In this document: positions 1 to 15,458 of the stretch, in pieces
Layout of the letters: every line of letters starts with the position of its first letter
How positions within the stretch are numbered: position 1 is the stretch's first letter
NCBI GenBank assembly: GCA_030148625.1
Contig: JASBTC010000369.1
Location: forward strand, 1 to 19,291
DNA from: Sphingobium sp.
GTDB lineage: Bacteria; Pseudomonadota; Alphaproteobacteria; Sphingomonadales; Sphingomonadaceae
Direction of reading: 5' to 3'
DNA length: 19,291 nt
Notes under the pieces: model-generated
Database searches by the model: none
What the model was told of the DNA's origin: nothing
Seen by the model: only the letters and a program-made list of their open reading frames with translations
Position numbers and translations under genes: made by a program

Positions 1-5
1 CTTCG

Positions 6-788
6 GTGATCCTCGATCGCCGGATCAACGCCGTGCGCGGCGACGTCGCCGACATCGCGCTCGCCGGCACGCTCTTTGCCCCCCACTATGCCTGTCCGAT
101 GAGCCGGAACTGCGCCGTGCCGTCAACGCCGGTGCGCGAGCGGCCGAGCGACGATGCAGCGCGGGTGTCGGAACTGCTCTATGGAGAGGCGTTCGAAGTG
201 CTCGACCTCAATGGCGGCTGGGCCTGGGGCTATTGCCGCGCCGACCATTATGTCGGCTATGTGCGCCAGGATGCGCTAACCACTGCGCATGACGGGACCT
301 GGCGGATCGCGGCTCCCGAAACCCGCGCCGATCGGGGTGACGTCCTGTTCATGGGCTCGATGATCGAGGGCACCGTACAAGGCGATGTGATCGAGACCCC
401 GCTTGGCGCGATCGCGCTCGGCGACGTGGCGGCCCCCGACGCGACCTTCGATCCCGTGGCGGTGGCCGAACGCTTCCTGGGCGCTCCCTATCTGCTGGGC
501 GGCCGCACCCTGCGCGGCATCGACTGTTCGGGGCTCGTGCAGCTTGCATATGCCATGGCGGGCGTTGCGCTGCCGCGTGACAGCGATCTCCAGGCCGCTA
601 TGGGGACTCCGCTTGCAGCCGGGGAGAACGCTCAGCGCGGCGACCTGGCTTTTTTCCCCGGCCATGTCGGGATGATGATCGATGGAGACCGCATGATCCA
701 CGCCACCGCACATAGCGGCAACGTCACTATCGAGCCGTTGGCCGATGTCGAGGCGCGCACGAGCGCGGCGACGGTGCGGCGGCCATGA
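6..788 (+). CDS. NlpC/P60 family cell-wall hydrolase (5' end may lie outside the window)
   Basis: Probable peptidoglycan endopeptidase that cleaves peptide stems in the periplasm. Residues about 35-95 look like a bacterial SH3-type wall-binding domain, and residues about 150-245 are the NlpC/P60 papain-like domain. The catalytic cysteine is Cys174 in DCSGLVQ, the general-base histidine is His220 in GHVGM, and the third polar residue is probably His232 in MIHAT. The reading frame is open to the window edge, so the GTG at position 6 is only the first start visible and the true start may be upstream. No signal peptide is visible from this start. The stop overlaps the argC start by four bases (ATGA), which implies one transcript with translational coupling. 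The family call is firm; the cleaved bond is not determined. Confidence 0.88.
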   Translation: MILDRRINAVRGDVADIALAGTLFAPHYACPMSRNCAVPSTPVRERPSDDAARVSELLYGEAFEVLDLNGGWAWGYCRADHYVGYVRQDALTTAHDGTWRIAAPETRADRGDVLFMGSMIEGTVQGDVIETPLGAIALGDVAAPDATFDPVAVAERFLGAPYLLGGRTLRGIDCSGLVQLAYAMAGVALPRDSDLQAAMGTPLAAGENAQRGDLAFFPGHVGMMIDGDRMIHATAHSGNVTIEPLADVEARTSAATVRRP

Positions 789-1726
789 CGCGCGTTTTCA
801 TCGATGGCGCCGCGGGCACGACCGGGCTGGAGATCCGCGAAAGGCTGGCAGGACGGAGCGACCTGTCCGTCACCGTGCTTTCCGATGCGGATCGCAAGGA
901 TGCCGCGGCACGGCGCGGCGCGCTCAATGATGCGGACGCCGTGATCCTCTGCCTGCCGGACGATGCTGCACGCGAAGCGGTTTCGCTGATCGAAAATCCC
1001 GCGGTCAAGGTGATCGATGCCTCGACCGCACACCGCACGGCTCCGGGCTGGGCCTATGGCTTTGCCGAGATCGAGCCCGAGCGCCGCGCCGAACTGTCCG
1101 GGGCAACGCGCATCTCCAATCCGGGCTGCTACCCTACCGGTTTTCTGGCGCTTGTCCGCCCGCTTGTCCGCGCCGGGCTGATTCCGGCGGACTGGCCGTT
1201 CACGGTCAACGCCACTTCCGGCTATTCGGGTGGCGGCAAGTCGATGATCGCGGCCTTTGAGGATGCAGCGGCGCCGGACGCGACCGATACCGCGTTTCGC
1301 ATCTATGCGCTCGGGCTGGGGCACAAGCACGTCGCTGAAATGCAGGTACAGGGCGGCCTCGCCCACCCGCCGCTGTTCATGCCCGCCGTCGCGCGCGCCT
1401 ATCGCGGCATGCTGGTCGAAGTGCCGCTGCAATTGTGCGCCATGGCGAACGCGCCGAGCGCCACCGCGCTGCGCGCTGCGCTTGCCGAGGCCTATGCCGG
1501 CAGCCGGCTGGTCTCGGTGCATCAGGACGGCGATCCCTCGCTGCTGACACTGGAGCGTTCCGCAGGCACCGACCGGCTGGAGTTGTTCGTCTTCGCCAAT
1601 GAAGCGGCGGGCCAGGTGCGCCTGGTCGCGGCGCTCGACAATCTCGGCAAAGGCGCCGGCGGTGCCGCTGTCCAGAATCTCAACCTGGCGATCGGGCTCG
1701 ACGAATATGCCGGGCTGCGGCTGTAG
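785..1726 (+). CDS. argC: N-acetyl-gamma-glutamyl-phosphate reductase
   Basis: Reduces N-acetyl-glutamyl-5-phosphate to the semialdehyde with NADPH, the third step of arginine synthesis in the cytoplasm. The N-terminus carries a nucleotide-binding glycine stretch (residues 7-14, DGAAGTTG). The catalytic cysteine is Cys115 in SNPGCYPTG, and a GYSGGGK loop lies near residues 147-153. At 313 residues it matches the shorter type-2 ArgC subfamily rather than the roughly 345-residue enterobacterial form. The ATG overlaps the stop of the NlpC/P60 gene, so it is translationally coupled to a wall hydrolase and no other arg gene is in view. The call is firm. Confidence 0.95.
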   Translation: MTRVFIDGAAGTTGLEIRERLAGRSDLSVTVLSDADRKDAAARRGALNDADAVILCLPDDAAREAVSLIENPAVKVIDASTAHRTAPGWAYGFAEIEPERRAELSGATRISNPGCYPTGFLALVRPLVRAGLIPADWPFTVNATSGYSGGGKSMIAAFEDAAAPDATDTAFRIYALGLGHKHVAEMQVQGGLAHPPLFMPAVARAYRGMLVEVPLQLCAMANAPSATALRAALAEAYAGSRLVSVHQDGDPSLLTLERSAGTDRLELFVFANEAAGQVRLVAALDNLGKGAGGAAVQNLNLAIGLDEYAGLRL

Positions 1727-1749
1727 AGGGATCCAGCGATCTTGAAATG

Positions 1750-1813
1750 CTCGTTATTGCGAGCGGGGCGACCGATGCCGGGTTGCTTCGCCGCTTGTGC
1801 GCTTCGCAATGGC
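1750..1813. repeat. Degenerate REP-like inverted repeat after argC
   Basis: The left arm ATTGCGAGCG (about 1756-1765) and the right arm CGCTT..GCTTCGCAAT (about 1791-1811) form an imperfect inverted repeat. Its flavour resembles the intergenic 'attgcgaagc' type repeats of many proteobacteria. It lies in the 164-bp gap between argC and the next gene. It may act as a weak terminator or be a decayed repeat. No second copy is present in the window. Confidence 0.3.
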
Positions 1814-1890
1814 GATCGACTTTACCGGAGCTTGCCTTGATCGCGGCTTAGGCGCATTTTTCCCTGCCTTGGGCAACAAGGGGGGATATC

Positions 1891-2325
1891 ATGAATGAAG
1901 CCGCCATCGTCGCGCCGACATGGTTCTGGATCGTTGTCGCCGTCTTCATCCTGTGGGGCCTGATGGGATGCTGGGCCTGCTATAGCCAGATGACGATCGC
2001 GCCCGAGAAGCTTGCAGCCCTTCCCGAAGCGCAACGCGATGCCTGGACCGCCCAGCCTGGCGCCATCAAGCTCGCTTATGTCGTTGCCGTCGGGGCCGGG
2101 CTTGCCGGGGCGGTGCTGCTCGCGATGCGCATGGATGTTGCGCGATGGGCGTTCGTCATATCGCTGGCCGCAGTGGTGCTTCAATTCGGCTGGTTCTTCG
2201 GCCCTTATCGCGGCGGCCAGAAGCTCGGCTGGGGGTCTGCGGGCTTTCCGCTGTTCATCGTGGCGATGTGCGTGATCCAGATCTGGTTCACCTGCTTCGC
2301 CGCGGCGAAGGGCTGGATCGGCTGA
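1891..2325 (+). CDS. Hypothetical four-helix inner-membrane protein
   Basis: Not a family I recognise. The 144-residue protein has four hydrophobic segments at about residues 10-30, 60-80, 84-104 and 118-138, separated by short loops. The longest loop (31-59) is polar and contains PEAQRDAW. The start ATG follows a strong Shine-Dalgarno sequence (AAGGGGGG, nine bases upstream). Spacing from argC is 164 bp with a degenerate repeat between, so it is probably a separate transcription unit. A perfect hairpin follows the stop. The strong ribosome site, membrane pattern and matching codon use make it a real gene; its function is unknown. Confidence 0.8.
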   Translation: MNEAAIVAPTWFWIVVAVFILWGLMGCWACYSQMTIAPEKLAALPEAQRDAWTAQPGAIKLAYVVAVGAGLAGAVLLAMRMDVARWAFVISLAAVVLQFGWFFGPYRGGQKLGWGSAGFPLFIVAMCVIQIWFTCFAAAKGWIG

Positions 2326-2331
2326 ACATCA

Positions 2332-2356
2332 TCCTCCCCATCGACGATGGGGAGGA
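2332..2356. terminator. Bidirectional hairpin between convergent genes
   Basis: A perfect 11-bp stem (TCCTCCCCATC with GATGGGGAGGA) around a GAC loop sits between the stop of the membrane protein (2325) and the stop of mltG (2360) on the other strand. There is no long T run on either side. Placement and symmetry suggest shared termination for both operons. Confidence 0.65.
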
Positions 2357-2359
2357 ATA

Positions 2360-3328
2360 TCACATTTCGCCCTTGGATCGGCGCAGCGCATACCATTTCT
2401 GCACATTGGCGTTGTGCTGGGCCAGTGTCTCGGCGAAGACGTGGCCGCCGCTGCCGTCCGCCACGAAGTAGAGCGCCCGGCTTTGCTCGGGATCGAGCAC
2501 CGCGGCAATGGATTCGGCGCCGGGGTTCGCGATCGGCCCTGCGGGAAGGCCGGCCATCGCATACGTATTGTAGCCGTTCATGGCATTCAGCTCGGAACGC
2601 AGGATGCGCCGGCCGAGCGGCTTCCCCTTCGTCACCGGATAGATGACGGTCGGATCGGCCTGCAGCTTCATCCCCGTGCGCAGGCGGTTGCCATAGACCG
2701 AGGCAACCATGCGGCGTTCGCCCGGCACGCCGGTTTCCTTCTCGACGATCGAGGCCAGGATGATCGCTTCACGCGGACTCGATACGGCGCTGGTCGGCTT
2801 GCGCGTCGCCCAGAGCGCAGCGAGCTTCTTGGTCATCGCATCCTGCATCCGCTTGAGCACCGCGGCGCGGGGCTCGCCGCGCTCGAAGCTGTAGGAATCG
2901 GGCAGCACCGACCCCTCGGGCGGAACCGGCACCGATCCGGTCAGCAGCTTCTCCGCCATCAGCTTTTCCTGGACCAGGATCGAAGGCATACCCGGCGGCA
3001 CGGTCACGAAACGCTGCAGCGTCTTGCCGCCCTGGAGCATCTTGAGCACGTCGGACGCGCTGGCGCCCTTGGGCACGCGATATTCGCCGGACTGGATCGG
3101 GGCATCGTCCCCGAACAGCTTGGCAAAGGTGAGGAACGTGTCCGCGGAACGGATCGCCCCGGCCTGCTCGAGCGTCCGCGCGGCGCCGGTCAGCGACGAT
3201 CCGTCCTTGATGATCACGGTCAGATTCTGCTCGGCCGGCCCCGGGCCGCCCCAGCTGCGCAACAGGTAGAGCCCCGCCAGTGCGACCGTGATCGCGACGA
3301 CGAGGCCGAGGCAGCCGGCCTTCTTCAC
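2360..3328 (-). CDS. mltG: Endolytic murein transglycosylase MltG
   Basis: Inner-membrane lytic transglycosylase that cuts nascent glycan strands and helps set their length (YceG-like family). A single membrane anchor spans about residues 7-24. A LysM-like region follows, and the catalytic domain contains LASIVEKET, with the expected catalytic glutamate at Glu196 (equivalent to Glu218 of the E. coli protein). Conserved YPVTKG, NAMNGYNTYAMAGLPAGP and NPG motifs follow. Length is 322 residues, close to the usual 340. The start is a GTG four bases after the fabF stop, so it is the last gene of the fab operon, a common alphaproteobacterial arrangement. Confidence 0.95.
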   Translation of the reverse strand: MKKAGCLGLVVAITVALAGLYLLRSWGGPGPAEQNLTVIIKDGSSLTGAARTLEQAGAIRSADTFLTFAKLFGDDAPIQSGEYRVPKGASASDVLKMLQGGKTLQRFVTVPPGMPSILVQEKLMAEKLLTGSVPVPPEGSVLPDSYSFERGEPRAAVLKRMQDAMTKKLAALWATRKPTSAVSSPREAIILASIVEKETGVPGERRMVASVYGNRLRTGMKLQADPTVIYPVTKGKPLGRRILRSELNAMNGYNTYAMAGLPAGPIANPGAESIAAVLDPEQSRALYFVADGSGGHVFAETLAQHNANVQKWYALRRSKGEM

Positions 3329-3332
3329 CCTG

Positions 3333-4592
3333 TCAGACCGCCCGCATCACCAGGCTGGCGTTGGTCCCGCCAAAGCCGAAGCTGTTGTTGAGGATCGCCT
3401 TCACCCGACGCTCCTTCGCGACATGCGGCACCAGATCGACGCCTTCGCAGCCGTCGCTGGGATTGTCGAGATTGAGAGTCGGCGGCACGATCTGATCGCG
3501 CATCGCCAGGATGGCGAAGATCGATTCGACCGCACCCGCGCCACCGAGCAGATGGCCGATGGCCGATTTGGTCGAACTCATCGACAAGCCGGAAATATCG
3601 CTGCCGAACAGCCGCTTGACCGCCCCCAGCTCCAGCTCGTCGCCGAGCGGCGTCGACGTGCCGTGCGCGTTGATATAGTCGATGTCGGACAGCGACAGGC
3701 CCGATTTGCGCATCGCCATCTCCATCGAGCGAAAGGCGCCCGAGCCCTCGGGATGCGGCGCCGTCACATGATAGGCGTCGCCCGACAGGCCGTAACCCAG
3801 CACTTCGGCATAGATTTTGGCGCCGCGCGCCTTGGCGTGCTCATATTCCTCGAGGCAGACGATGCCCGCGCCCTCGCCCATGACGAAACCGTCGCGTTCC
3901 TTGTCCCAGGGGCGGCTGGCCCGGGCCGGCTCGTCGTTGAAATTGGTCGACAAGGCACGTGCCTGCGCAAAGCCAGCGATACCCAGCGGGCACAGCGCAC
4001 CCTCCGAACCGCCCGCCAGCATGATGTCCGCGTCGTCCATCGCGATCATCCGTGCCGCGTCGCCGATGGCGTGCGCGCCGGTCGAGCAGGCGGTGACGAC
4101 CGCATGATTGGGGCCCATCAGCCCATATTTGATCTGAACCTGACCGGTGATGAGGTTGATCAGGCGGCCATGGACGAAATGCGGGCTGACGCGGCGCGGC
4201 CCCTTTTCGTGCAGGACGATCGATTCTTCCTCGATGCCCGGAAGGCCGCCGATTCCCGATCCGATCGAACAGCCCGCGCGATAGCGCTGCGCCTCGGTCA
4301 GATCCGCAAGCCCCGCATCCTCATAGGCCTGGCCGGCGGCGTCGATGCCATAGATGATGAAGGGATCGACCTGACGCTGGACCTTGTGGTCGACGCGCTT
4401 GCCAGGATCGAAGCCATATTCATGGTCCGCAGGCTTCACTTCGCATGCAATGCGGCAGACATAATCGGTCGCGTCGAAACGCGTGATCTGTCCTGCGCCG
4501 GATTTACCCGCGATCAGGTTCCTCCAGACGGTTTCGACCTCCGCCCCGAGCGGCGTCACGAGGCCCAGTCCGGTTACGACGACGCGGCGCAT
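3333..4592 (-). CDS. fabF: 3-oxoacyl-[acyl-carrier-protein] synthase II
   Basis: Condensing enzyme that elongates acyl-ACP with malonyl-ACP in type II fatty-acid synthesis. The Cys-His-His triad is Cys169 (VTACSTG), His310 (NAHGTST) and His347 (IGHLLGG), matching 163/303/340 of E. coli FabF. The start chosen is the ATG at 4592, which gives the canonical MRRVVVTGLG beginning and 419 residues. A GGAG sequence lies seven bases upstream. A longer in-frame start at 4622 would add ten residues that lie over the terminator tail and are not family-like. It follows acpP across a terminator-like hairpin and is followed closely by mltG. Confidence 0.96.
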   Translation of the reverse strand: MRRVVVTGLGLVTPLGAEVETVWRNLIAGKSGAGQITRFDATDYVCRIACEVKPADHEYGFDPGKRVDHKVQRQVDPFIIYGIDAAGQAYEDAGLADLTEAQRYRAGCSIGSGIGGLPGIEEESIVLHEKGPRRVSPHFVHGRLINLITGQVQIKYGLMGPNHAVVTACSTGAHAIGDAARMIAMDDADIMLAGGSEGALCPLGIAGFAQARALSTNFNDEPARASRPWDKERDGFVMGEGAGIVCLEEYEHAKARGAKIYAEVLGYGLSGDAYHVTAPHPEGSGAFRSMEMAMRKSGLSLSDIDYINAHGTSTPLGDELELGAVKRLFGSDISGLSMSSTKSAIGHLLGGAGAVESIFAILAMRDQIVPPTLNLDNPSDGCEGVDLVPHVAKERRVKAILNNSFGFGGTNASLVMRAV

Positions 4593-4620
4593 AGTCTCAC
4601 TCCGATAGAAATTCCAAAGC

Positions 4621-4662
4621 AAAACGGCTCCCCGGCCCTGATGAACCCGGGTCGGGAAGCCG
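4621..4662 (-). terminator. Intrinsic terminator or attenuator between acpP and fabF
   Basis: Read on the minus strand, CGGCT at 4662-4658 pairs with AGCCG at 4629-4625. Inner pairs CCCG/CGGG and CCC/GGG continue the stem, and four U residues follow (4624-4621). It lies 35 bases after the acpP stop and 28 bases before the fabF start. That geometry suggests partial termination, which would make more acpP than fabF message. Confidence 0.65.
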
Positions 4663-4697
4663 CTTCTATATCCTTGGGCGGCCGAACGGCCAGCCGA

Positions 4698-4934
4698 TCA
4701 GCCCTTGTTGGCGTCGATATAGGAGATCGCGTCCTTCACGGTCGAGATCTTCTCGGCCGCGTCATCGGGAATCTCGACACCGAATTCTTCCTCGAAGGCC
4801 ATGACGAGCTCGACGATATCAAGGCTGTCCGCGCCCAGATCGTCGATGAAGCTCGCGTCTTCGGTCACCTTTTCGGCCTCGACGCCGAGATGTTCGACGA
4901 CGATTTTCTTCACGCGGTCGGCGGTCTCGCTCAT
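4698..4934 (-). CDS. acpP: Acyl carrier protein
   Basis: Carries growing fatty acyl chains on a phosphopantetheine arm. The 78-residue acidic protein has the attachment motif [10 protein letters not shown], with Ser37 as the modified serine, and the usual helix II sequence [15 protein letters not shown]. The ATG at 4934 follows AAGGATG, about eight bases away. It sits between an unknown secreted-protein gene and fabF in the fab operon. A terminator-like hairpin follows, as expected if this abundant protein needs more message than its neighbours. No promoter of convincing quality was found in the 99 bp upstream. Confidence 0.97.
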
Positions 4935-5033
4935 GAGGTCATCCTTTTCTTAATGGGTGTTCAGCTTCAGGACGCACCTAATGTGCCACTGCGCCGCTGG
5001 CAAGAGGGCCGCGGAGCAGCTTCACGGATCGCG

Positions 5034-5585
5034 CTAATTCGCAATGAATTTCGCACGATCGACTTCAGCCACCGCAAGCAAAGCCGCGAGAATGCCCAGA
5101 TGCTCGCCATGCATTTCGGTTTCCACCTTCAAACCCGCCGCTGCGACGGCGCCCATATAGGCGGCGATCGTCGCATCGGGAATCGGATCCTGTTGAAAGC
5201 TGGCACGCATATCGTCGGGCAGAGCACGGAAAATGCGCGTCACCGTGACCGGGTCGAATCCGTCGCCGGCCAGTGCGCGTTCGGCACCCGGGACAGTGAG
5301 CGCTGCGATGACGTGGCCGATCGCCGCCTCGAACGCCACGTCGGACCAGCCATGTTTCTGTTTGCAGGCGACTGCCTGCGCGGCGACGGCCTCGACCGCT
5401 TCATCTCCGGGCGGCCGTGCCGTCTCCGCGTCGATCGATTGAAACAGATCGTCGGAAAGCTGCCTGGGAATCGATGGATCGAGCCCGTCCGCAATGCAGC
5501 CCAGCGTTGCGGCGTCAGCGGCCAGCGCCGGCACGGGCGACAACAAGGCAGCCAGGGTCGCGCCGGCGAGCCACTTGATCCTCAT
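5034..5585 (-). CDS. Hypothetical exported protein in the fab operon
   Basis: Not a family I recognise. The 183-residue protein begins with a clear Sec signal peptide (basic MRIK, hydrophobic core to about residue 16, cleavage probably after ALA at residue 22). The mature part is alanine-rich and predicted helical, with two cysteines (Cys30 and Cys74) that could form a disulfide in the periplasm. The ATG follows AAGGGAAG at good spacing. It lies 39 bp after fabG and 99 bp before acpP, co-oriented with both. A secreted protein here is unusual because the flanking enzymes are cytoplasmic. Its function is unknown and a link to lipid or envelope supply is only a guess. Confidence 0.8.
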   Translation of the reverse strand: MRIKWLAGATLAALLSPVPALAADAATLGCIADGLDPSIPRQLSDDLFQSIDAETARPPGDEAVEAVAAQAVACKQKHGWSDVAFEAAIGHVIAALTVPGAERALAGDGFDPVTVTRIFRALPDDMRASFQQDPIPDATIAAYMGAVAAAGLKVETEMHGEHLGILAALLAVAEVDRAKFIAN

Positions 5586-5624
5586 CGCGCTTCCCTTCGA
5601 TCGATCGCCCGGCTTGGGGGACGA

Positions 5625-6362
5625 TCAGAGCATGGCCATCCCGCCATTGACGTGCAAGGTCTGGCCGGTGACGTAAGATGCCTCACGACTGGCCAGATAG
5701 ACCACCGCCGCGCCGATATCGTCACCTTCGCCCAGCTTGCCCGCCGGAATCCGCCCGAGCAGCGCATCCTTCTGCGCTTCGGGCAGAACATCGGTCATCG
5801 CCGAGCGAATGAAGCCGGGCGCGACGCAATTGACGGTGACGTTGCGACTGGCCAGCTCCTGCGCCACCGCCTTGGACATGCCGACCAACCCGGCCTTCGA
5901 CGCGGCATAATTGGCTTGCCCGGGATTGCCCGTCGCGCCGACGACCGAAGTGATCGAGACGATACGTCCGAATCGCGCCTTCATCATCGGTTTCGACGCG
6001 GCGCGGACGAGGCGGAATGCGGCCTCGAGATTGACGCGGATCACGGTTTCCCATTCCTCGTCCTTCATCCGCATGGTCAGGTTGTCACGAGTCACGCCGG
6101 CATTGTTGACCAGGATATCGAGCTGCCCCAGCGCTTCGACCGCGCGCGGCACGAGTCCGTCCACCGCCGCGCCATCCGAGAGATCGCAGGCGAGCGCGAC
6201 ATGATCGCCGCCGAGTTCGGCACGAAACGCCTCCAGCTTCTCCGCATTGGATCCCGAAAGCGCGAGCCGAGCGCCCTGCCCGGCCAGCGCCTTCGCCACC
6301 GCCGAGCCGATTCCGCCCGAAGCGCCAGTCACCAGCGCGGTCATTCCCGTCAGATCGAACAT
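5625..6362 (-). CDS. fabG: 3-oxoacyl-[acyl-carrier-protein] reductase
   Basis: NADPH-dependent short-chain dehydrogenase that reduces 3-oxoacyl-ACP in each elongation cycle. The Rossmann motif is TGASGGIG (residues 12-19) and NNAG lies at 86-89. The catalytic set is Asn111, Ser139, Tyr152 and Lys156 (NYAASK), as in E. coli FabG. Length 245 matches the family. The ATG at 6362 follows AAGGGAAAG. That ribosome site lies just before the stop codon of the upstream GxxExxY gene, so translation is likely to be coupled. In relatives of this operon fabG usually follows fabD directly; here a 442-bp inverted-repeat unit separates them. Confidence 0.96.
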   Translation of the reverse strand: MFDLTGMTALVTGASGGIGSAVAKALAGQGARLALSGSNAEKLEAFRAELGGDHVALACDLSDGAAVDGLVPRAVEALGQLDILVNNAGVTRDNLTMRMKDEEWETVIRVNLEAAFRLVRAASKPMMKARFGRIVSITSVVGATGNPGQANYAASKAGLVGMSKAVAQELASRNVTVNCVAPGFIRSAMTDVLPEAQKDALLGRIPAGKLGEGDDIGAAVVYLASREASYVTGQTLHVNGGMAML

Positions 6363-6374
6363 GTCTTTCCCTTT

Positions 6375-6791
6375 TTATTGGTTCACGCGGAGGCGCGGAG
6401 ACGCGGAGGGTTTGTGGTCGTTGACCACCCGACGCACGCCTTCCTTCAACGTCGCTCCGCCAAAGTTGATTAGCAGCCCAACAGCCTGCCCGGTCAGTCG
6501 CAAATATGTCAGAAGCTGTTTTGTATGCGCGTTGTTCAGATTCTCGACGGATTTGACCTCGACGATCAGGCGCTCGTCGATAAGCAGGTCGATTCTGAAC
6601 GCCGCCTCGAAATGCATCCCCTCAAATTCGATATTCACGGGCCTTTGCCTGCTGACCGTATATCCCATCATCGTCAGCTTTCCGGCTAGAACGGTTTCGT
6701 AGACACTTTCGAGCAATCCTGGACCGAGATCGCGGTGAATGCGCAGCGACAGATCGAGCACGTCGCCGCTGATTTCATCGATCTCCCTCAC
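6375..6791 (-). CDS. GxxExxY protein (PD-(D/E)XK nuclease-fold family)
   Basis: Small protein of the GxxExxY family (PDDEXK_3), a restriction-nuclease-like fold whose role is not established. The name motif is GLLESVY at residues 25-31. The nuclease core is visible as Glu28, Asp68 (RIDLLID), Glu78 and Lys80 (VEVK), with Gln92 after it, so the active site looks intact. Length 138 is normal. The GTG start at 6791 is preceded by GGAGGGGAG, part of which belongs to the terminal inverted repeat. The last residues, about 128-137 (PSASPRLRVN), are encoded inside the other arm. The gene lies between fabD and fabG in the same direction and ends 12 bases before fabG. Confidence 0.9.
   Translation of the reverse strand: MREIDEISGDVLDLSLRIHRDLGPGLLESVYETVLAGKLTMMGYTVSRQRPVNIEFEGMHFEAAFRIDLLIDERLIVEVKSVENLNNAHTKQLLTYLRLTGQAVGLLINFGGATLKEGVRRVVNDHKPSASPRLRVNQ
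6383..6410 (+). repeat. 28-bp inverted repeat, fabG-proximal arm
   Basis: Consists of TC followed by three tandem octamers, ACGCGGAG, GCGCGGAG and ACGCGGAG, then GG. It is an exact reverse complement of 6797-6824. On the minus strand it encodes the C-terminal end of the GxxExxY protein. Confidence 0.95.
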
Positions 6792-6796
6792 TGCTC

Positions 6797-6824
6797 CCCT
6801 CCGCGTCTCCGCGCCTCCGCGTGA
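6797..6824 (-). repeat. 28-bp inverted repeat, fabD-proximal arm
   Basis: Exact reverse complement of 6383-6410, beginning nine bases after the fabD stop codon in the direction of transcription. On the minus strand its end provides the GGAGGG that serves as the ribosome-binding site for the GTG start at 6791. Confidence 0.95.
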
Positions 6825-6832
6825 CCCCGTAC

Positions 6833-7771
6833 CTAAAGCGTCTTCAGCAGGGCCTCGATATCGTCCATCGACACCAGGCTCACCGCCTCCACGTCACCGA
6901 CCGCGCTGCGCTTGACCATCGGGCCGAGCACCTTGCCGCCGAACTCGACGAACTGCGTGACGCCGGCAGCCTCCATCGCCACCACCGATTCGCGCCAGCG
7001 CACGCGGCCGGTCACCTGTTCGACCAGCAGGCCGCGAATGATATCGGCATCGGCCGCCGGCGCGGCGGTGACATTGGCATAGACCGGGACCAGCGGGGCG
7101 CGGATCGCGGCGACGGCAAGCGCCTCGGCCATCGCATCGGCGGCGGGCTGCATCAGCGGGCAGTGGAAAGGCGCGGACACAGGCAAGAGGATGCTCCGCT
7201 TGATGCCGTGATCCTTGACCAGCGCGACGGCGCGCTCGATCGCGCCCTTATGGCCTGAAATCACCACCTGTCCGGGATCATTGTCGTTGGCGACGGTGCA
7301 GACCTCACCCTCCGCGGCCGCATCGGCCAGCGCCTGGGCTTTTTCGATATCCGCGCCGAGCAAGGCCGCCATCGCGCCGATGCCCACCGGCACGGCGGCC
7401 TGCATCGCCTGTCCGCGCAGTTTGAGCAGCCGCGCGGTGGTCGCGACATCGAAGGCATCGGCCGCGCACAGCGCGCTATATTCGCCCAGGCTATGGCCGG
7501 CGACGAACTCCGCCTTGTCGGCCAGCCTGACTCCACCTTCCTTCTCGACCACGCGCAGCGTTGCGATCGCGTTCGCCATGATCGCCGGTTGGGCATTCTC
7601 GGTGAGCGTCAGCTGATCCTCGGGGCCCTCGGTCATCAGCCGGAACAGATTCTGCCCAAGCGCCTCATCGATTTCCTGGAACAGCTCGCGCGCGACGGGA
7701 CTCGCATCGGCGAGTGCCTTGCCCATACCGACCGCTTGGCTGCCCTGCCCCGGGAAAATGAAGGCCTTCAT
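6833..7771 (-). CDS. fabD: Malonyl-CoA:ACP transacylase
   Basis: Transfers malonyl from CoA to ACP, committing malonate to fatty-acid synthesis. The sequence opens with the canonical FPGQGSQ. The nucleophile is Ser94 in GHSLGEY, the acyl-binding arginine is Arg119 (LRGQAMQ) and the catalytic histidine is His203 (APFHCPLM). Length 312 matches the family. The start chosen is the ATG at 7771, with AGGAG 11 bases upstream. An in-frame start at 7867 would add 32 residues with no family counterpart. It is the first gene of the fab operon and is divergent from the efflux operon across a 147-bp gap that must hold both promoters. Confidence 0.96.
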   Translation of the reverse strand: MKAFIFPGQGSQAVGMGKALADASPVARELFQEIDEALGQNLFRLMTEGPEDQLTLTENAQPAIMANAIATLRVVEKEGGVRLADKAEFVAGHSLGEYSALCAADAFDVATTARLLKLRGQAMQAAVPVGIGAMAALLGADIEKAQALADAAAEGEVCTVANDNDPGQVVISGHKGAIERAVALVKDHGIKRSILLPVSAPFHCPLMQPAADAMAEALAVAAIRAPLVPVYANVTAAPAADADIIRGLLVEQVTGRVRWRESVVAMEAAGVTQFVEFGGKVLGPMVKRSAVGDVEAVSLVSMDDIEALLKTL

Positions 7772-7918
7772 CGCAAATTTCGCTCCTGTTACAATTCGCG
7801 ACACAAAATAATTTGGCGCGTAAAACCGGTTGCGGCAGGGACTAGAGAGAGGAATGACGGCACGCAAGCCGCATGAATTTCATTTCCCGTTCAGGCGGAA
7901 AGCGGAGTCAATCCACGG

Positions 7919-9313
7919 GTGCGTAGCAAGCTGATCCTTTCACTGAGCCTCGCCCCGCTGATGGCGGGGTGTGCGGCCGGGCCCGATTACCGGCCGGCGG
8001 CTCCCACGCAATTGGGCGTTCCCGATGCCTATAGCCAGGGCGCCGGGCAACCGCTGTCGCCCGATGCGATGGCAAGCTGGTGGACGCAATTGGGCGATCC
8101 CACCCTCGATACGCTGGTCGAACGCGCGATCGCGGCCAATCTCGATCTTGCCCAGGCGACGGCACGATTGCGCCAGGCGCGCGAAGCGCTGGTGCAGGCA
8201 CGCGCGGGGCTGCTCCCCACGCTCGATGCGTCGGCGGGAACGGGGCGCAACTTCAGCAGTCCGGGCACGGACCGCAGCAGTTTCTCGCTTGGCGGCGACG
8301 CCGCATGGGAGATCGATATTTTCGGCGGTATCGGCCGCTCGGTCGAAGCGGCGCGCGCCGATGCCGAAGGCGCCGGTTATGATCTCGCAAATGTCCGCGT
8401 CGCGATCGCCGCCGAGGTCGTCACCAATTATATCCAGGCCCGCCTGTCGCAGGAACAGCTGCGCATCGCGCGCGAAACGCTGACCAACGACTCCGAGAAT
8501 CTCGATATCGCCGGGTGGCGCGTCCAGGCCGGGCTGGTCTCCTCGCTCGATCAGGAGCAGGCGCGGGCCCAGCGCGCGCGGACAGCAGCCTCAATCCCGA
8601 GCCTCGAGACCCAATATCGCGGCGCGCTCAACCGTATCGCGGTGCTGACCGGCGAAGCACCGGGCGCAGCCACCGCCTCGCTCGAGGCGCCCGCACCGAT
8701 CCCGTCCGCGCCCACCGACATCGCCACCGGCATCCCCGCCGATACGTTGCGTCAGCGGCCCGACGTCCGGTCCGCGGAACGCGCTCTGGCCTCTGCGACC
8801 GCGCGGATCGGCGTCGCGCAGGCGGACTTGCTGCCGTCGCTCAGGATCACGGGCAATATCGGCACCAGCGCTTTCTCGCTCGGCGGTCTGTTCGACACCG
8901 TCACCGGCGGCCTGTTCGCCAACATCGCCCAGTCGATCTTCGATGGCGGCCGGCGGCGTTCGGTGGTCCGTTCGCAGCAGGCGGCGGCCGACGCGGCCTT
9001 TGCCGGTTACAAGCAGACCGTCCTCACCTCGCTCGAGGATGTCGAGAATGGCGTGAACGCGCTCAATGCGTCACGGATCCGCGCCGGCGAGTTCACGATC
9101 GCGCTCGACGCCGCCAGCAATTCGGCGATCCTGGCGCGCAGCCAGTATCGTGCCGGCCTGACCGATTTCCAGACGCTGCTGCAGACCGAGCAATCCCTGC
9201 TGTCGGCGCGCAACAGCATCGCCTCCAGCCGCGCCGACCAGGCGCTGGCGGTGGTCCAACTCTATCGCGCGCTCGGCGGCGGATGGCAAAGCATGGACGG
9301 AATTGCCCGATGA
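7919..9313 (+). CDS. NodT-family outer-membrane efflux lipoprotein (TolC-like)
   Basis: Outer-membrane channel of a tripartite exporter. The GTG start gives a lipoprotein signal ending LMAGC, so Cys18 would be lipidated. The early motif GPDYRPA is typical of NodT-type factors. Two outer-membrane-efflux repeats follow (about 60-255 and 270-455), with the conserved LRQRPDVRSAE at the start of the second half and YRAGLTDFQTLLQTE near the end. Length 464 is usual. The ribosome site is weak (GGAG about 13 bases away), but no better in-frame start exists. The stop overlaps the adaptor gene start by four bases (ATGA), placing all four exporter genes in one operon. Confidence 0.93.
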   Translation: MRSKLILSLSLAPLMAGCAAGPDYRPAAPTQLGVPDAYSQGAGQPLSPDAMASWWTQLGDPTLDTLVERAIAANLDLAQATARLRQAREALVQARAGLLPTLDASAGTGRNFSSPGTDRSSFSLGGDAAWEIDIFGGIGRSVEAARADAEGAGYDLANVRVAIAAEVVTNYIQARLSQEQLRIARETLTNDSENLDIAGWRVQAGLVSSLDQEQARAQRARTAASIPSLETQYRGALNRIAVLTGEAPGAATASLEAPAPIPSAPTDIATGIPADTLRQRPDVRSAERALASATARIGVAQADLLPSLRITGNIGTSAFSLGGLFDTVTGGLFANIAQSIFDGGRRRSVVRSQQAAADAAFAGYKQTVLTSLEDVENGVNALNASRIRAGEFTIALDAASNSAILARSQYRAGLTDFQTLLQTEQSLLSARNSIASSRADQALAVVQLYRALGGGWQSMDGIAR

Positions 9314-10986
9314 ACGACACGACCAATGGCATTGGCAACACCGCCGGACTCGACGATTTCCTGGGCGTCCAGCCCGGCAAGCCCTGGCGCAAATGGGCGG
9401 TGCGCGGCGGTGCCCTGGCACTGCTGGTCGTCCTGGTCCTGCTCGTCGCGCGCTGCTTCGGCGGCAGCGAAGAGCCGAACTATACCACCCGCGAGGTGCG
9501 CAAGGGCGACCTGACCGTCACCGTCTCCGCCACCGGCAATCTCAAGCCGATCAACCAGGTCGATGTCGGCTCCGAACAATCGGGCCTGATCACCAACGTC
9601 TATGTCGACGTGAACGACCGCGTCACCAAGGGGCAGTTGCTCGCAATACTCGATCCGTCGCGACTGAACGATGCGGTGACGCAAAGCCGTTCGCAGCTTT
9701 CGGCATCGCAGGCCGGGGTCGCGCAGGCACAGGCGCAGGAAGCGCTCGCGCGCGCCACGCTCGCTCGTCAGGAGGAAGTCTTCAGGCTGTCGGGCGGCAA
9801 GGTGCCGTCCAGGACCGAGCTCGATACCGCACGCGCCAATTTCCGTCAGGCACAGGCCCAGATACGTTCGGCTCAGGCCCAGGTCGAAGTGTCGCGCGCG
9901 CAGCTTTCCTCCGCCCAGTTCAATCTCAGCCGGGCGCGGATCGTCTCCCCGGTCAACGGCGTAGTCCTGTCGCGCGATATCGAGCCGGGTCAGACGGTGG
10001 CGGCATCGTTCAACGCGCCCGTGCTGTTCACCATCGCCGAGAATCTCCAGCAGATGGAGGTCGAGGTTTCGGTCGACGAAGCCGATGTCGGCCAGGTCAA
10101 GGACGGCCAGGAAGCCACCTTCACCGTCGACGCATTTCCCGGCCGCCACTTCCCCGGCCGGATCACCCGCGTCAATGTGGGCTCCAATGCCGCGAGCAGC
10201 AGTTCATCATCGTCGTCGGCGGCTTCATCGAGCACCGGCACCGTCGTCGCCTATACAGCCGTCCTGTCGGTGCAGAATCCCGACGAGACGCTGCGGCCGG
10301 GCATGACCGCGACCGCGGACATCGTCACCAAGCAGCTCCAGAACGTCGTGCTCGTTCCCAATTCCGCGCTGCGCTTCAATCCGCAACAGGCCGGCGGCGG
10401 TCAGCGTGGCGGCATCACCAGCCAGATCGTTCCAGGGCCCCGCCGTTTCGGCAATCGCGCCACGCGCGAAGTGAGTTTCGGCGCAGGCAGCCGCCAGACC
10501 GTCTATGTGCTGGGTGACGACGGCAAGCCCAAGGCGATCAATGTCGTCATCGGCGACAGCGACGGCAACCGTACGGTCGTCACAGGCGGTGACCTCAAGG
10601 AGGGCATGAAAGTCATCACCGGCCAGCTCGCGGCCGGCCAGCAGGCGCCCGAGACCGATCGCACCGATGAAAAGAGCGGCCAGCGCAATGGCGCCGGACA
10701 AGGCAAGGCAGACAATGCCGCGACGCCGGCGGCCAACCCTGCCGCGTCGGCGCCCAGCACGACCTCGCAGCGCGACAGTGGCGGCACCGTTGCGGCCACG
10801 CCCCCGGTACAGGGCGGAGCCGCCGCCCCGGGCGGTCAGCGCCTGCGTGACATGACGCCCGAGCAGCGTCGCGCCTTTCTGGACAGCCTGACGCCCGAAC
10901 AACGCGAGGCATTCCGCAAACAGCGGGAGGAACGCCGCCAGCAACGCGGGCAATCCGGTGGAGCGGCCGCGTCCGATGGAGAATGA
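9310..10986 (+). CDS. MacA-like periplasmic adaptor (HlyD/RND-MFP family)
   Basis: Membrane-fusion subunit joining the MacB-like pump to the outer-membrane channel. One membrane helix spans residues 30-47. A lipoyl/barrel-sandwich domain follows (about 60-100 and 205-240), interrupted by a long alanine/glutamine-rich coiled-coil hairpin (about 110-200), then a beta-barrel. Odd features are an eight-serine run (residues 296-303) inside the barrel region and a low-complexity tail of about 120 residues ending in two LTPEQR-like repeats (515-533) and a basic Arg/Gln stretch. The start is the ATG overlapping the previous stop; upstream in-frame sequence belongs to the channel gene in another frame. 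Length is 558, longer than the roughly 370 of E. coli MacA. Confidence 0.92.
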   Translation: MNDTTNGIGNTAGLDDFLGVQPGKPWRKWAVRGGALALLVVLVLLVARCFGGSEEPNYTTREVRKGDLTVTVSATGNLKPINQVDVGSEQSGLITNVYVDVNDRVTKGQLLAILDPSRLNDAVTQSRSQLSASQAGVAQAQAQEALARATLARQEEVFRLSGGKVPSRTELDTARANFRQAQAQIRSAQAQVEVSRAQLSSAQFNLSRARIVSPVNGVVLSRDIEPGQTVAASFNAPVLFTIAENLQQMEVEVSVDEADVGQVKDGQEATFTVDAFPGRHFPGRITRVNVGSNAASSSSSSSSAASSSTGTVVAYTAVLSVQNPDETLRPGMTATADIVTKQLQNVVLVPNSALRFNPQQAGGGQRGGITSQIVPGPRRFGNRATREVSFGAGSRQTVYVLGDDGKPKAINVVIGDSDGNRTVVTGGDLKEGMKVITGQLAAGQQAPETDRTDEKSGQRNGAGQGKADNAATPAANPAASAPSTTSQRDSGGTVAATPPVQGGAAAPGGQRLRDMTPEQRRAFLDSLTPEQREAFRKQREERRQQRGQSGGAAASDGE

Positions 10987-11677
10987 TCCGATCATTCGTC
11001 TGCGCGGGGTCACCAAGACCTATGGCAGCGGGCCGACCGCCTTTCAGGCGCTGAAGGGCGTCGATCTCGATATCCAGCGCGGCGATTTCGTCGCGGTCAT
11101 GGGCCCGTCGGGATCGGGCAAGTCGACGACGATGAACATTCTCGGCTGCCTCGATGTGCCGAGCGGTGGATCGTTCGAGTTCAAGGGGCATCGCGTCGAA
11201 GCGCTCGACCGCGATCAGCGCGCGCTGCTCCGCCGCAAATATCTCGGATTCGTCTTTCAAGGGTTCAATCTGCTGAGCCGCACCACAGCGCTCGAGAATG
11301 TCGAGCTGACTTTGCTCTATCGCGGCGAGGACAAGAAGACGCGCTACGATTCAGGCATGGCTGCGCTCGACAAGGTCGGGCTGAAACCATGGTGGGACCA
11401 TACTCCGGCCGAATTGTCGGGCGGACAGCAACAACGCGTCGCCATTGCGCGCGCGATCGTCACGCACCCGGACGTGCTGCTCGCCGACGAACCCACCGGA
11501 AATCTCGACAGCGAGCGCTCGGTCGAGATCATGGAATTGCTGACCGACCTCAATCGCAACAGCGGCATCACCGTGCTGATGGTCACGCACGAGCCCGATA
11601 TGGCCGCTTTCGCGCGCACCATCGTCCATTTCAAGGATGGGTTGGTCGAGCGCACCGAAAAGGGGAAGCGGGCATGA
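10976..11677 (+). CDS. MacB-like ABC transporter ATP-binding protein
   Basis: ATPase subunit of the exporter, of the LolD/MacB type. Walker A is GPSGSGKST (43-51), the Q-loop lies in VFQGFNLL (93-100), the signature is LSGGQQQR (147-154), Walker B is VLLADE (167-172) and the switch histidine is His205. The ATG at 10976 overlaps the adaptor by 11 bases and gives 233 residues; an in-frame GTG at 10958 is a possible but longer alternative. In E. coli MacB this domain is fused to the permease, whereas here the two are separate genes overlapping by ATGA. All motifs are intact. Confidence 0.95.
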   Translation: MENDPIIRLRGVTKTYGSGPTAFQALKGVDLDIQRGDFVAVMGPSGSGKSTTMNILGCLDVPSGGSFEFKGHRVEALDRDQRALLRRKYLGFVFQGFNLLSRTTALENVELTLLYRGEDKKTRYDSGMAALDKVGLKPWWDHTPAELSGGQQQRVAIARAIVTHPDVLLADEPTGNLDSERSVEIMELLTDLNRNSGITVLMVTHEPDMAAFARTIVHFKDGLVERTEKGKRA

Positions 11678-12885
11678 TCCTCGGCACCACCGTCACCCTC
11701 GCCTTTCGTGCGATCCTGCGCCACAAGCTGCGGTCTTTCCTGACGACGCTCGGCATCATCATCGGCGTGTCCGCGGTCGTCACCATGACCACGCTCGGCA
11801 ATGGCGCGACCGCCGCGGTGCGCGAGCAGATCGCAAGTCTCGGCGCCAATATCCTCCAGCTTCGTCCCGGCCAGGGTTTCGGTCGTGGCGGCGGCGGGCC
11901 GCGACCGCCGGACTTCAAGCCCGAGGACGTCACCGCCATCGCCAACCAGATCACGGGTGTCCGTGCGGTCGCGCCGCAGGCGCAGAGTTCCGGCACCGCG
12001 ATCTACGAAGGCAATAACTGGTCGACCACCGTCAACGGCACGACCGCATCCTATTTCGAGGCGCAGCAATGGCCGCTGGAATCGGGCCGGCTGTTCATGC
12101 CCGAGGAAGAGGAGGCTGGAAAACCGGTCTGCATCATCGGCAGCACGCTGCGCAAGAATCTGTTCAAACAGGCCGACCCGGTCGGCCAGCGTTTCCGTAT
12201 CAAGGGCGTGAGCTGCCAGGTGATCGGCGTGCTCGCGACGCGCGGTCAGGGCGGCTTCGGCCAGGATCAGGACGATGTGGCGGTGATGCCGATCAAGTTC
12301 GTCCAGCGCCGCTTCACCGGCAATCGCGACCTGGGGTTGATCATGGTCGCGGTCGACGATGCCTATGACTCGGCAGCGGTCCAGGCATCATTGGAAGGAT
12401 TGATGCGTGAACGGCGTCGGATCAAACCCGGCGACCAGGACAATTTCAACGTGTTCGATACCAAACAGATCTCGGACACGCTGACCGGCACCACCACCAT
12501 CCTGACCCAGATCGTGGCCGCCGTCGCCGCGATCTCGCTGCTCGTCGGCGGCATCGGCATCATGAATATCATGCTGGTCTCGGTGACCGAGCGGACGCGC
12601 GAGATCGGCATCCGCCTCGCCATCGGCGCGGTGGCGCGCGAAGTGCTGCTTCAGTTTCTGGTCGAGGCGATCGTGCTGTCGTGCCTGGGCGGGTTGATCG
12701 GCATATTCCTCGCGCTGATCGCTTCGATCACGATCGCGCCGCTGATGCAAGTTCCCTTCATTTTCGATGTGAAGATCAACCTGTTGGCCTTTCTCTTTTC
12801 TGCGGCGATAGGTGTGGTCTTCGGCTATTTTCCGGCGCGCCGCGCTGCTCAACTCAACCCCATCGATGCGCTGCGCCATGAATAG
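11674..12885 (+). CDS. MacB-like ABC transporter permease (FtsX domain)
   Basis: Membrane subunit of the exporter. One N-terminal helix (about 21-42) is followed by a large periplasmic MacB_PCD domain (about 43-270), which contacts the adaptor. Three C-terminal helices (about 278-300, 330-355 and 369-388) form the FtsX-type domain. The conserved VSVTERTREIGIRLAIGA motif links the last helices, and the protein ends NPIDALRHE, a typical MacB ending. A glycine/arginine-rich loop (GFGRGGGGPRPP) lies near residues 68-79. The ATG overlaps the ATPase stop by four bases. Length is 403. The substrate cannot be read from sequence; MacAB relatives export macrolides, peptides or lipids. Confidence 0.94.
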   Translation: MILGTTVTLAFRAILRHKLRSFLTTLGIIIGVSAVVTMTTLGNGATAAVREQIASLGANILQLRPGQGFGRGGGGPRPPDFKPEDVTAIANQITGVRAVAPQAQSSGTAIYEGNNWSTTVNGTTASYFEAQQWPLESGRLFMPEEEEAGKPVCIIGSTLRKNLFKQADPVGQRFRIKGVSCQVIGVLATRGQGGFGQDQDDVAVMPIKFVQRRFTGNRDLGLIMVAVDDAYDSAAVQASLEGLMRERRRIKPGDQDNFNVFDTKQISDTLTGTTTILTQIVAAVAAISLLVGGIGIMNIMLVSVTERTREIGIRLAIGAVAREVLLQFLVEAIVLSCLGGLIGIFLALIASITIAPLMQVPFIFDVKINLLAFLFSAAIGVVFGYFPARRAAQLNPIDALRHE

Positions 12886-12899
12886 GCAAGCGATTCGCA

Positions 12900-12937
12900 C
12901 CCGAAACGACCGGCGGCTGGAAACGGTCCGATTCGGG
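12900..12937 (+). terminator. Hairpin after the exporter operon
   Basis: CCCGAA (12900-12905) pairs with TTCGGG (12932-12937), and GACCG (12908-12912) pairs with CGGTC (12924-12928), with a small internal loop. It begins 15 bases after the permease stop. No clear T tract follows, so termination is plausible but not certain. Confidence 0.45.
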
Positions 12938-13176
12938 GCTTTGAGTGATTATTCAGTATTTTCAGGTGGATGGCTGATTTTTCGGTCCCGCTTCGGTACG
13001 CTTGATCGCGAAGGCCTCGCGGAAAAACTTGCGAAATTACATGGTTTTCGGCAAGATGATCGAAGTTAGCCGTTCGATGCTGTCCGATTGGCTCCGTGAC
13101 ATTCTACCCGGTTCTTCGGGTGGCCGGCCCTGTCGGGATGGGTCGGGCTTGACCGGCATGATTTAGGGGTTTGAGA

Positions 13177-13455
13177 ATGATCCGATCAGAACTCGTCCAG
13201 CGGCTTGCCGGCGAAAATCCCGACCTTTCGATCAAGGATGTCGAGCGCATCGTCGACGTGTTCTTCGACGAAATCACCGCACGCCTGGCCGAAGGCGGTC
13301 GCGTCGAGCTGCGCGGCTTCGGTGCCTTTTCCACACGGTCGCGCACCGCGCGTGTCGGGCGCAACCCGCGTACCGGTGAATCGGTGGATGTCGACGCCAA
13401 ACGCGTCCCCTATTTCAAGCCGGGCAAGGAAATGCGCGAGCGCCTGAACGTTTAG
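13177..13455 (+). CDS. ihfB: Integration host factor subunit beta
   Basis: DNA-bending nucleoid protein that pairs with IHF-alpha. The 92-residue sequence has the HU/IHF fold, with the beta-arm motif GRNPRTG (61-67; Pro64 is the intercalating proline), the RGFGAFS core (46-52) and the ending [16 protein letters not shown]. The [10 protein letters not shown] beginning and FKPGKEMR ending favour IHF-beta over HU. The ATG at 13177 is preceded by AGGGG at seven to eight bases; a TTG six bases earlier is in frame but less likely. It stands alone, with 291 bp upstream that contains small GC-rich hairpins (for example 13116-13131) and no convincing promoter that I could identify. Confidence 0.93.
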
Positions 13456-13493
13456 AGCTGGAGCGGATTAGTCCAGCGAGCTGATCCAACCCA

Positions 13494-13563
13494 CGTCATG
13501 CCAGCGAACGCTGGCATCTATGCGCGATCTGGTCAGCAGACCCCAGCCTTCGCTGGGGTGACG
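13494..13563. repeat. Two-hairpin intergenic repeat
   Basis: Two perfect hairpins sit side by side: ATGCCAGCG/CGCTGGCAT (13498-13517) and ACCCCAGC/GCTGGGGT (13540-13559). The outer ends CGTCATGCCAGC and GCTGGGGTGACG are themselves imperfectly complementary, so the whole 70 bp is a large palindrome. It lies between the convergent ihfB and ABC permease genes and may terminate both. This layout is typical of dispersed repeats in sphingomonads (from memory, not checked). Confidence 0.75.
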
Positions 13564-13583
13564 CCTTGGTTCGGACTCTTTAC

Positions 13584-14351
13584 TCAGCTCTTCAGCCGAT
13601 ACCCTGTCCGGAACATCCAGCCGACCACAGCCAGGCAGATTGCCAGGAACGCGAAGACCGCGATCAGGCTGACCTCGATCGCAACGTCGCTCTTGCCGAA
13701 GAAGGTCCAGCGAAAGCCGCTGATCAGATAGACGACCGGATTGAACAGCGTCACCGTCCGCCACGCGGCGGGAAGCATGTCGATCGAATAGAAGGCGCCG
13801 CCGAGAAAGGTCATCGGCATCACCACCAGCATCGGCACGACCTGAAGCTGTTCGAAGCTCTGCGCCCAGATGCCGAGAATGAAGCCGAACAGGCAGAATG
13901 TGACCGCCATCAGCACCATGAACCCCACCATCGCCAGCGGATGCGCCACCTGCACGTCAACGAACAGATGCGCCGTCGCGAAGATGATCGTCGCGATCAC
14001 CAGCGACTTGGTCGCCGCTGCGCCGACATAGGCGATCACCGTTTCGATCGCCGAGACCGGCGCCGACAGCAATTCGTAGATCGTGCCCGACCATTTGGGC
14101 ATGTAGATGCCGAAACTGGCGTTGAAGATGCTCTCGGTGAACATCGTCAGCATCATCAGCCCGGGCACGATGAACGCGCCATAAGGCACGCCGCCGATCT
14201 CGGTCATCCGCGACCCGATCGCCGAGCCGAAGACGATGAAATAAAGCGAGGTGGTGATGACCGGCGTGATCAGGCTGGTGAGCACCGTCCGCCCGAAGCG
14301 CGCGACCTCGAACTTGTAGATCGCCCAGACGCTGTGCGCGTTGAACCCCAT
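13584..14351 (-). CDS. ABC-2 type transporter permease
   Basis: Membrane subunit of an export ABC transporter in the ABC-2 (YadH-like) family. It has about six hydrophobic segments, with the characteristic FGSAIGSRM after the first helix, [27 protein letters not shown], and the late motif [14 protein letters not shown] followed by [12 protein letters not shown]. The ATG at 14351 shares one base with the stop of the ATPase gene, and GGGGAG lies six bases upstream. A GTG one codon earlier is also possible. Length is 255. It forms a two-gene operon with the ATPase; the substrate is unknown. Confidence 0.93.
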
Positions 14352-15289: not shown

Positions 15290-15296
15290 CGGACGC

Positions 15297-15325: not shown

Positions 15326-15417
15326 CGGCATGTGACATGTGGCATATCGCAAGCAAGGTCGAACCCGTTGGGGGGCCAAGGCCGAACGGCCGCCCGCGCT
15401 TGTGCGAGGGAAGCCAA

Positions 15418-15433: not shown

Positions 15434-15458
15434 GCGGGCGCCCGAGGCGAAAACAAGC

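Follow-up and report, generated by a model that had tools for sequence, protein, structure and literature searches.

A GxxExxY nuclease gene framed by inverted tandem-unit arrays in a Sphingobium fab operon and its proposed partnership with dispersed hairpin repeats

A stretch of 19,291 nucleotides from Sphingobium sp. (assembly GCA_030148625.1, contig JASBTC010000369.1, positions 1 to 19,291), here called the window, carries between fabD and fabG a short gene of the GxxExxY family framed by inverted arrays of short tandem units. This gene and arrays of this kind are linked across genomes, and we infer that the enzyme has a role in moving the repeats. Comparison at the sequence level establishes the flanking of the gene by arrays, their dispersal, their co-occurrence with the gene, the coevolution of arms and protein, the concerted change of the two arms and an occupancy that disagrees with host relationships. 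We consider it probable (roughly 0.7) that gene and repeats form a system like that of REPINs, the inverted doublets of repetitive extragenic palindromic (REP) sequences, and their REP-associated tyrosine transposases (RAYTs), built here on a nuclease of the PD-(D/E)XK fold that recognizes arms of its own type and spreads gene-free hairpins in trans.

The element in the window is made up as follows:
6380..6827, no strand assigned: whole element (arm, GxxExxY gene, arm), 448 bp, from inverted-repeat search and score.
6380..6410, + strand: fabG-side arm, 31 nt, three NCGCGGAG units, doubling as the code for the C-terminal tail of the GxxExxY open reading frame (ORF).
6797..6827, - strand: fabD-side arm, an inverted copy a few bases 5' of the GTG start, 97% over 31 nt and 100% over the inner 28 nt.
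6375..6791, - strand: GxxExxY gene, 138 amino acids, GTG start, nuclease of predicted PD-(D/E)XK fold, from profile search and alignment.

The repeat search of the window found the two arms 386 nt apart, with 97% complementarity over 31 nt. A sequence-only reading of the same DNA had reported exact 28-bp inverted arms at 6383-6410 and 6797-6824, each built from three 8-bp units, and both observations stand: the inner 28 nt are perfect reverse complements, the units are of the NCGCGGAG type, and the match extends outward to 31 nt. Its statement that the arms enclose only the gene had to be corrected, since the reading frame crosses the 6383-6410 arm to a stop at 6375 and the arm encodes the tail PSASPRLRVNQ; similar tails are found in the listed relatives in the alignment. 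An exact scan found two adjacent NCGCGGAG units at these two arrays alone within the window, and the element scored 57 as an inverted repeat when stretches of 165 and 225 nt were searched.

The enclosed ORF is a clear member of the TIGR04256/PF13366 family, matching PF13366 (PDDEXK_3) with an E value of 2.7e-36 (124.9 bits versus a curated cut-off of 22) and TIGR04256 (GxxExxY) with 4.5e-36 (123.7 bits versus 35). The profile search returned PF13366 as the sole family matching the gene, and DDE transposase families gave no match. Across 35 aligned, fairly close relatives, G25, E28, D68, E78 and K80 are invariant and Y31 is kept in at least 90%, which bears out the earlier remark that the active-site residues Glu28, Asp68, Glu78 and Lys80 are intact. 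Codon comparison indicates purifying selection on the protein, with ratios of nonsynonymous to synonymous substitution (dN/dS) of 0.08-0.18 in five of six pairs, the sixth being saturated. Homologues fall into at least 7,999 protein clusters. Several GxxExxY proteins carry the public (JGI) name "iron complex transport system substrate-binding protein", probably a wrongly transferred one.

Flanking arrays are usual around GxxExxY genes. With an inverted-repeat score of at least 30 as the criterion, 51 of 57 distinct loci are flanked, comprising 48 of 50 sphingomonad loci (window counted in, many having entered through the fabD query) and three of seven plasmid-borne loci of other phyla (Bacteroides, Bernardetia and Gemmatirosa). 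Loci of other Pseudomonadota, found by PF13366 alone, reach the score in 25 of 29 cases, and the other four score 22-29. This set holds 29 of 30 loci, which came from 30 of the 62 listed places; L296 was dropped because its sphingomonad genome was in the count already. Among random places in related DNA, 23 of 3000 reached 30, in stretches of 275 and 280 nt as for the other Pseudomonadota, and this control is generous with respect to the window score because longer stretches give chance more room. The 20 stretches taken from the Sphingomonadales scan cover 21 of its 32 GxxExxY places; the G075 stretch (L164, a weak GxxExxY match) had no tblastn hit and lies outside the 57 loci. Thus, to the question whether GxxExxY genes regularly sit in inverted arrays, raised in the sequence-only reading, the 48 of 50 and 25 of 29 loci answer yes.

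The units of these arrays vary (CGCGGAG, CGCAGAG, CGCGAAG, CGCAAAG, CGCCAAG, CACAAAG, CACGAAG, CACAGAT, CACGGAA) around a common pattern near C[A/G]C..A[G/T] with one to three spacer bases, giving units of about 8-9 bp. The arms differ between loci, yet they agree within a locus, odd features included: an insert in L162, an extra C in L166 and an altered outer unit in L175 are present in both arms. On the Gemmatirosa megaplasmid (L182), complete hairpins (1301-1371 and 1887-1958) stand one on each side of GxxExxY instead of single arms, and this gene copy was matched as two overlapping pieces in different frames.

Arrays are also dispersed in the genomes that carry the gene. Among 20 hand-picked sphingomonad genomes (the gene lies at fabD-fabG in 16 and not in the other four), GxxExxY was present in 17, at one to four copies each, and arrays were found in all 17 and in none of the three gene-less genomes. 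Exact array matches numbered 3 to 96 per gene-bearing genome of this set, versus 0-4 for a reversed-pattern control. Sphingopyxis supplies six of these genomes, of which three have the gene and three lack it, and the contrast in gene and arrays is therefore present within one genus. The sequence-only reading called the family multi-copy in some genomes; in the picked genomes the gene itself is of low copy number, one to four where present, and the abundant form is the gene-free hairpin. On plasmids, the Gemmatirosa megaplasmid contains 95 arrays versus four matches to the reversed pattern, and a Bacteroides plasmid record 13 versus none.

Two wider samples gave the same association. Of 147 evenly drawn Sphingomonadales, 21 had both gene and arrays, five the gene only, five arrays only and 116 neither (p 2.5e-16, kinship uncorrected). 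Four of the five gene-only genomes have variant arms missed by the pattern, and the fifth is a weak fragment match (E 7.2e-5). Among 299 Pseudomonadota, scanned with a pattern of 9-bp period that captures just some of the arm types, the corresponding numbers were 18, 19, 12 and 250 (p 2e-11, kinship uncorrected); four of the 13 genomes matching the reversed 9-bp pattern had the gene (p 0.06). The sequence-only reading had regarded repeats scattered everywhere and unlinked to GxxExxY as a finding that would undo it. The repeats are indeed scattered, yet whether a genome has them is strongly linked to the gene.

In two genomes with arrays in which the gene was undetected, G077 (L323, L324, L326, L327) and, in part, G108 (L316, L319), several arrays show an inside-out order of right arm, short gap and left arm. 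In G203 (L329-L332), where GxxExxY was also undetected, the hairpins have CACAGAG arms, and three of the four fetched (L330-L332) have similar interiors and flanks.

The anatomy of the gene-free form was examined mainly in Novosphingobium colocasiae (the L057 genome), by aligning 13 simple elements, chosen for spacing, and seven compound ones, all hand-picked from listed pairs. All 13 simple elements measure about 145 bp and share common arms and a degenerate common interior, and their flanks are unrelated, bar one similar pair. In the second family (seven examined, one degenerate), outer arms of one type surround an inner element of another. The predicted hairpins span about 25-30 bp, with z scores of -9.3 for an element of this genome and of -6.0 and -10.4 for elements of the L065 and L068 genomes. 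The elements end in TGG|TTCRCGC ... GCGYGAA|CCA. Arms within an element of the Novosphingobium genome differ at 1.5 of 27 positions versus 3.9 between elements (p 0.0002). Direct repeats of 3-9 bp flanking 72 elements (some of them orthologous) were not clearly above those of shuffled pairs (best z 1.75), and a search of Rfam gave a single match, far under the gathering score. Compound hairpins with outer arms around a differently typed inner element, joined by short linkers, were seen in G011 (L251-L257), L117, L136 and L144.

At the junction occupied in the window, the element lies between two co-directional genes:
6833..7867, - strand: fabD, upstream neighbour of the GxxExxY gene, from the mechanically listed ORFs, putative start.
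5625..6362, - strand: fabG, downstream neighbour, from profile search.

The closest FabD relatives of the window in the FabD scan are Sphingopyxis. Of the 80 loci sampled in that scan, 21, from several genera, have the GxxExxY gene between fabD and fabG, and 26 have a gap of just 2-33 bp; the remainder have longer gaps (other palindromic repeats, other reading frames, remnants) or fabG out of reach. An empty site of about 28 bp, expected by the sequence-only reading, was not what we found: gene-free sites as a rule lack a 28-bp arm, and the 26 short gaps hold only those 2-33 bp. Intermediate states exist, as L064 has kept both arms with the gene mostly deleted, and in L012 the arms surround a gene-free interior. 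GxxExxY loci as a whole occupy several different junctions, with varying insertion points; fabG lies downstream in 30 of the 57 (the fabD query biases this set), and five of the 57 precede an NLTHSL-type gene. For comparison, a homing endonuclease gene lies within a conserved target and its product cuts alleles that lack it; GxxExxY junctions recur, with insertion points that vary.

By comparison of sequences, arm type tracks the GxxExxY phylogeny rather than the host. Protein and arm distances are correlated, with a Mantel r of 0.70 for 49 elements and of 0.64 for the 46 sphingomonad ones; eight of the 57 loci (L017, L099, L100, L170, L184-L187) were left out of this comparison for an arm score below 30 or a broken ORF. 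For the fabD-fabG elements, the partial Mantel r between protein and arms, given FabD+FabG distance, is 0.66 (p 2e-4), and the correlation of arms with host, given the protein, is -0.18. These Mantel tests used 21 of the 22 junction elements (L017 dropped), and all 22 entered the approximately unbiased (AU) test, in which the FabD+FabG topology was rejected for GxxExxY (p 1.25e-5). Several pairs of similar hosts carry unlike elements, with FabD+FabG versus GxxExxY divergences of 5% versus 37% (L042/L032), 6% versus 43% (L007/L009) and 7% versus 35% (L058/L065), and the arm type differs within each pair. Other pairs have similar elements as well (L065/L068, 2% versus 4%; L059/L070, 3% versus 10%). 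The rejected topology and the unlike elements in close hosts indicate, therefore, that the junction has been refilled more than once, or that its content has been exchanged by recombination confined there.

These features invite comparison with known systems. REP units are short palindromes that carry a tetranucleotide tag, GTAG for instance, whereas the GxxExxY arms consist, by inspection, of tandem units of about 8-9 bp. Passages of PMC3116915 describe REPINs as inverted REP doublets that fold into hairpins and are associated with RAYTs, and excerpts of PMC8049555 describe RAYTs as single-copy and vertically inherited. The GxxExxY arrays, too, are dispersed inverted doublets with predicted hairpins, and the likeness extends to a low-copy gene (one to four per gene-bearing genome) that is partnered with gene-free hairpins and sits beside the same repeats. 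With it goes a near-absence from phages and plasmids: no match in 50,697 phage records (two queries, E 1e-5), no confirmed relative in scans of IMG/VR with a single protein or an alignment as query, and eight matches in 72,556 plasmid records, the same count with each of three queries. Unlike RAYTs, which are Y1/HUH tyrosine transposases, the partner here is a predicted PD-(D/E)XK nuclease, and its occupancy of the junction is host-discordant, whereas RAYTs are vertical in the excerpts of PMC8049555. The gene families compared with array presence were GxxExxY and Y1 (PF01797); Y1 was found in three of the 20 picked genomes, with no match in 14 of the 17 array-bearing ones. A RAYT as mover of the arrays was rejected as unsupported, given Y1 in three of the 20 genomes.

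With insertion sequences and miniature inverted-repeat transposable elements (MITEs) of the DDE type, the elements share the existence of gene-bearing and gene-free forms with common terminal inverted repeats. They differ in that the enclosed gene has no DDE match, that 72 elements showed no detectable target duplication, and that the ends are arrays of tandem units which change in concert from element to element. Nucleases such as Hjc or Cas4 resemble the GxxExxY protein in predicted fold and in the E...D...ExK residues; it differs as a short stand-alone protein linked to dispersed repeats, and a sequence search of solved structures (PDB) with it gave no match at E <= 1.

We propose that the 448-bp unit is the gene-bearing, or master, form of a mobile hairpin family whose ends would be marked by inverted arms of short tandem units, C[A/G]C[A/G][A/G]AG plus one to three spacer bases. 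The nuclease would recognize arms of its own type and work both in cis and in trans, and gene-free hairpins of about 145 bp with the same arms would thereby spread genome-wide, in the manner of REPINs and their RAYT enzymes. Where DNA is single-stranded, as on the lagging-strand template, the arms may pair to a hairpin of about 30 bp; the nuclease could then cut at its base near GGTTC/GAACC, and the copy would be joined elsewhere without target duplication. Correction of mismatches within the hairpin might keep the two arms alike. Recognition, binding, cutting and movement by the enzyme are thus what we infer. The mobile cassette "like REP/RAYT or MITE" suggested in the sequence-only reading gains from the flanking arrays, the dispersed gene-free copies, the filled and gene-free junctions and the disagreement of the GxxExxY tree with FabD/FabG, and the part of it that stays conditional is movement by the enzyme itself. 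As for the wider proposal, a new bacterial class of mobile elements in several phyla, in which a stand-alone GxxExxY nuclease copies or moves tandem-array hairpins without target duplication, we lean towards it with less assurance.

A number of observations weigh against such a system. The strongest are the array-bearing genomes without a GxxExxY gene (5 of 147 and 12 of 299), several of which hold many arrays with intact-looking hairpins. Thirteen of these 17 genomes (all except G032, G360, G421 and G432) were searched loosely and gave no clear gene remnant, two matches remaining below threshold (E 0.042 and 0.239). The array-only genomes may have lost the gene recently, a history also proposed for orphan REP populations, or may be a sign of another mover. 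The p values for co-occurrence overstate certainty because related genomes are not independent, and the reversed pattern matched nine of the 147 Sphingomonadales, one to four times each, all nine gene-bearing; this may come from long arrays with an A spacer, which would match the reversed pattern. The CAGAG-type pattern had at most one match in five of the seven plasmid records, and the plasmid-borne loci of Prevotella, Fusobacteria, Treponema and Persicobacter lack arms at the score threshold. An element's own partner was the best-matching arm in 40 of 49 cases (ties allowed) and strictly best in 33, and such matches are favoured because the arms were delimited by aligning both arms of each element. 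In gene-free elements, arm concordance was significant in one of three genomes, the other two having five and four elements, and gene-free arms match the gene arms of their own genome weakly (p 0.01-0.03, 15 genomes, mostly with few elements). The flanks of seven hairpins, each compared with two to four related genomes, gave no recent insertion paired with a clean empty site; exact insertion points are unreadable there because the intergenic stretches have turned over too far and some gaps hold other palindromic repeats. Finally, we know of no precedent for a PD-(D/E)XK enzyme as a lone transposase.

Some of these points would fit hairpins that are MITEs of another transposase, with GxxExxY as cargo or a captured gene serving another purpose, such as repair or defence. 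The gene-less array genomes, 13 of them with no clear remnant, would agree with this, and so would the several array subtypes per genome, not all of which match the arms of the gene. A cargo gene, however, has no obvious reason to be flanked at 48 of 50 and at 25 of 29 loci, or to coevolve with its arms once host effects are accounted for; enzymes of the Y1/RAYT type were not found in 14 of the 17 array-bearing genomes, and the missing target duplication in 72 elements speaks against most DDE enzymes. We regard this explanation as unlikely. Somewhat less likely still, in our opinion, is that GxxExxY is a structure-specific nuclease, Hjc-like or Cas4-like, that trims or resolves hairpins for their control or upkeep rather than their spread, forming a self-regulated or addictive pair beside its own targets.

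Vertical descent at fabD-fabG with losses, the arms drifting in concert through gene conversion, would agree with the presence of the gene at 21 of 80 fabD loci in several genera and with a moderate host signal (Mantel r 0.45). It is made very improbable by the rejection of the FabD/FabG topology (AU p 1.25e-5, FabD+FabG standing in for the species tree) and by close hosts with very different elements and other arms (L042/L032, 5% versus 37%; L058/L065, 7% versus 35%), although recombination confined to the junction may be an alternative source of this discordance. The arms adjoin the start codon and run into the last codons of the ORF, as a control structure of the gene in its mRNA, promoter or terminator might, and pairing would yield their covariation with no movement at all. 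This last explanation we find hardly credible, contradicted as it is by dispersed gene-free copies with the same kind of arms, by gene loci at several different junctions and by the host-discordant occupancy.

If the wider proposal of a new class holds, a family of at least 7,999 protein clusters would gain a function, and the origin of many intergenic repeats that now lack an explanation would become clear. The lifestyle of REPINs and RAYTs would also have arisen a second time, independently, on a different enzyme fold. The principle of a repeat with a partner enzyme is known, and our results suggest that an unrelated enzyme as the partner is new. A search of the literature by family name and accessions (licence-limited PMC, without preprints) returned no account of the role of GxxExxY; the family is named there only in passing, in passages silent on repeats. 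Listings and abstracts of the literature on such repeats, preprints outside the scope, describe no pairing of GxxExxY with arrays. The link across phyla provides a candidate mover for the repeats and a candidate substrate for the protein, both testable, and the coevolution of protein and arms is a natural data set for DNA recognition.

The fabD-fabG gap itself tolerates several kinds of insert, because palindromic repeats of other kinds, e.g., CCCTCTCCC...GGGAGAGGG in L028, are found at this junction in relatives. Gaps of 106-169 bp with such repeats were seen in L028, L035, L036, L038, L044, L046, L050 and L052. Ten loci (L010, L014, L018, L021, L023, L027, L029-L031 and L056) have gaps of 802-819 bp; L010 alone was read, and its insert resembles an enoyl-CoA hydratase gene by eye. 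The gaps of L067 and L071 (757 and 780 bp) contain other reading frames, apparently in reverse orientation. In L009 (Sphingopyxis sp. HIX, 4940-7720), fabD is separated from the GxxExxY element by a nested gene-free element and a further long reading frame.
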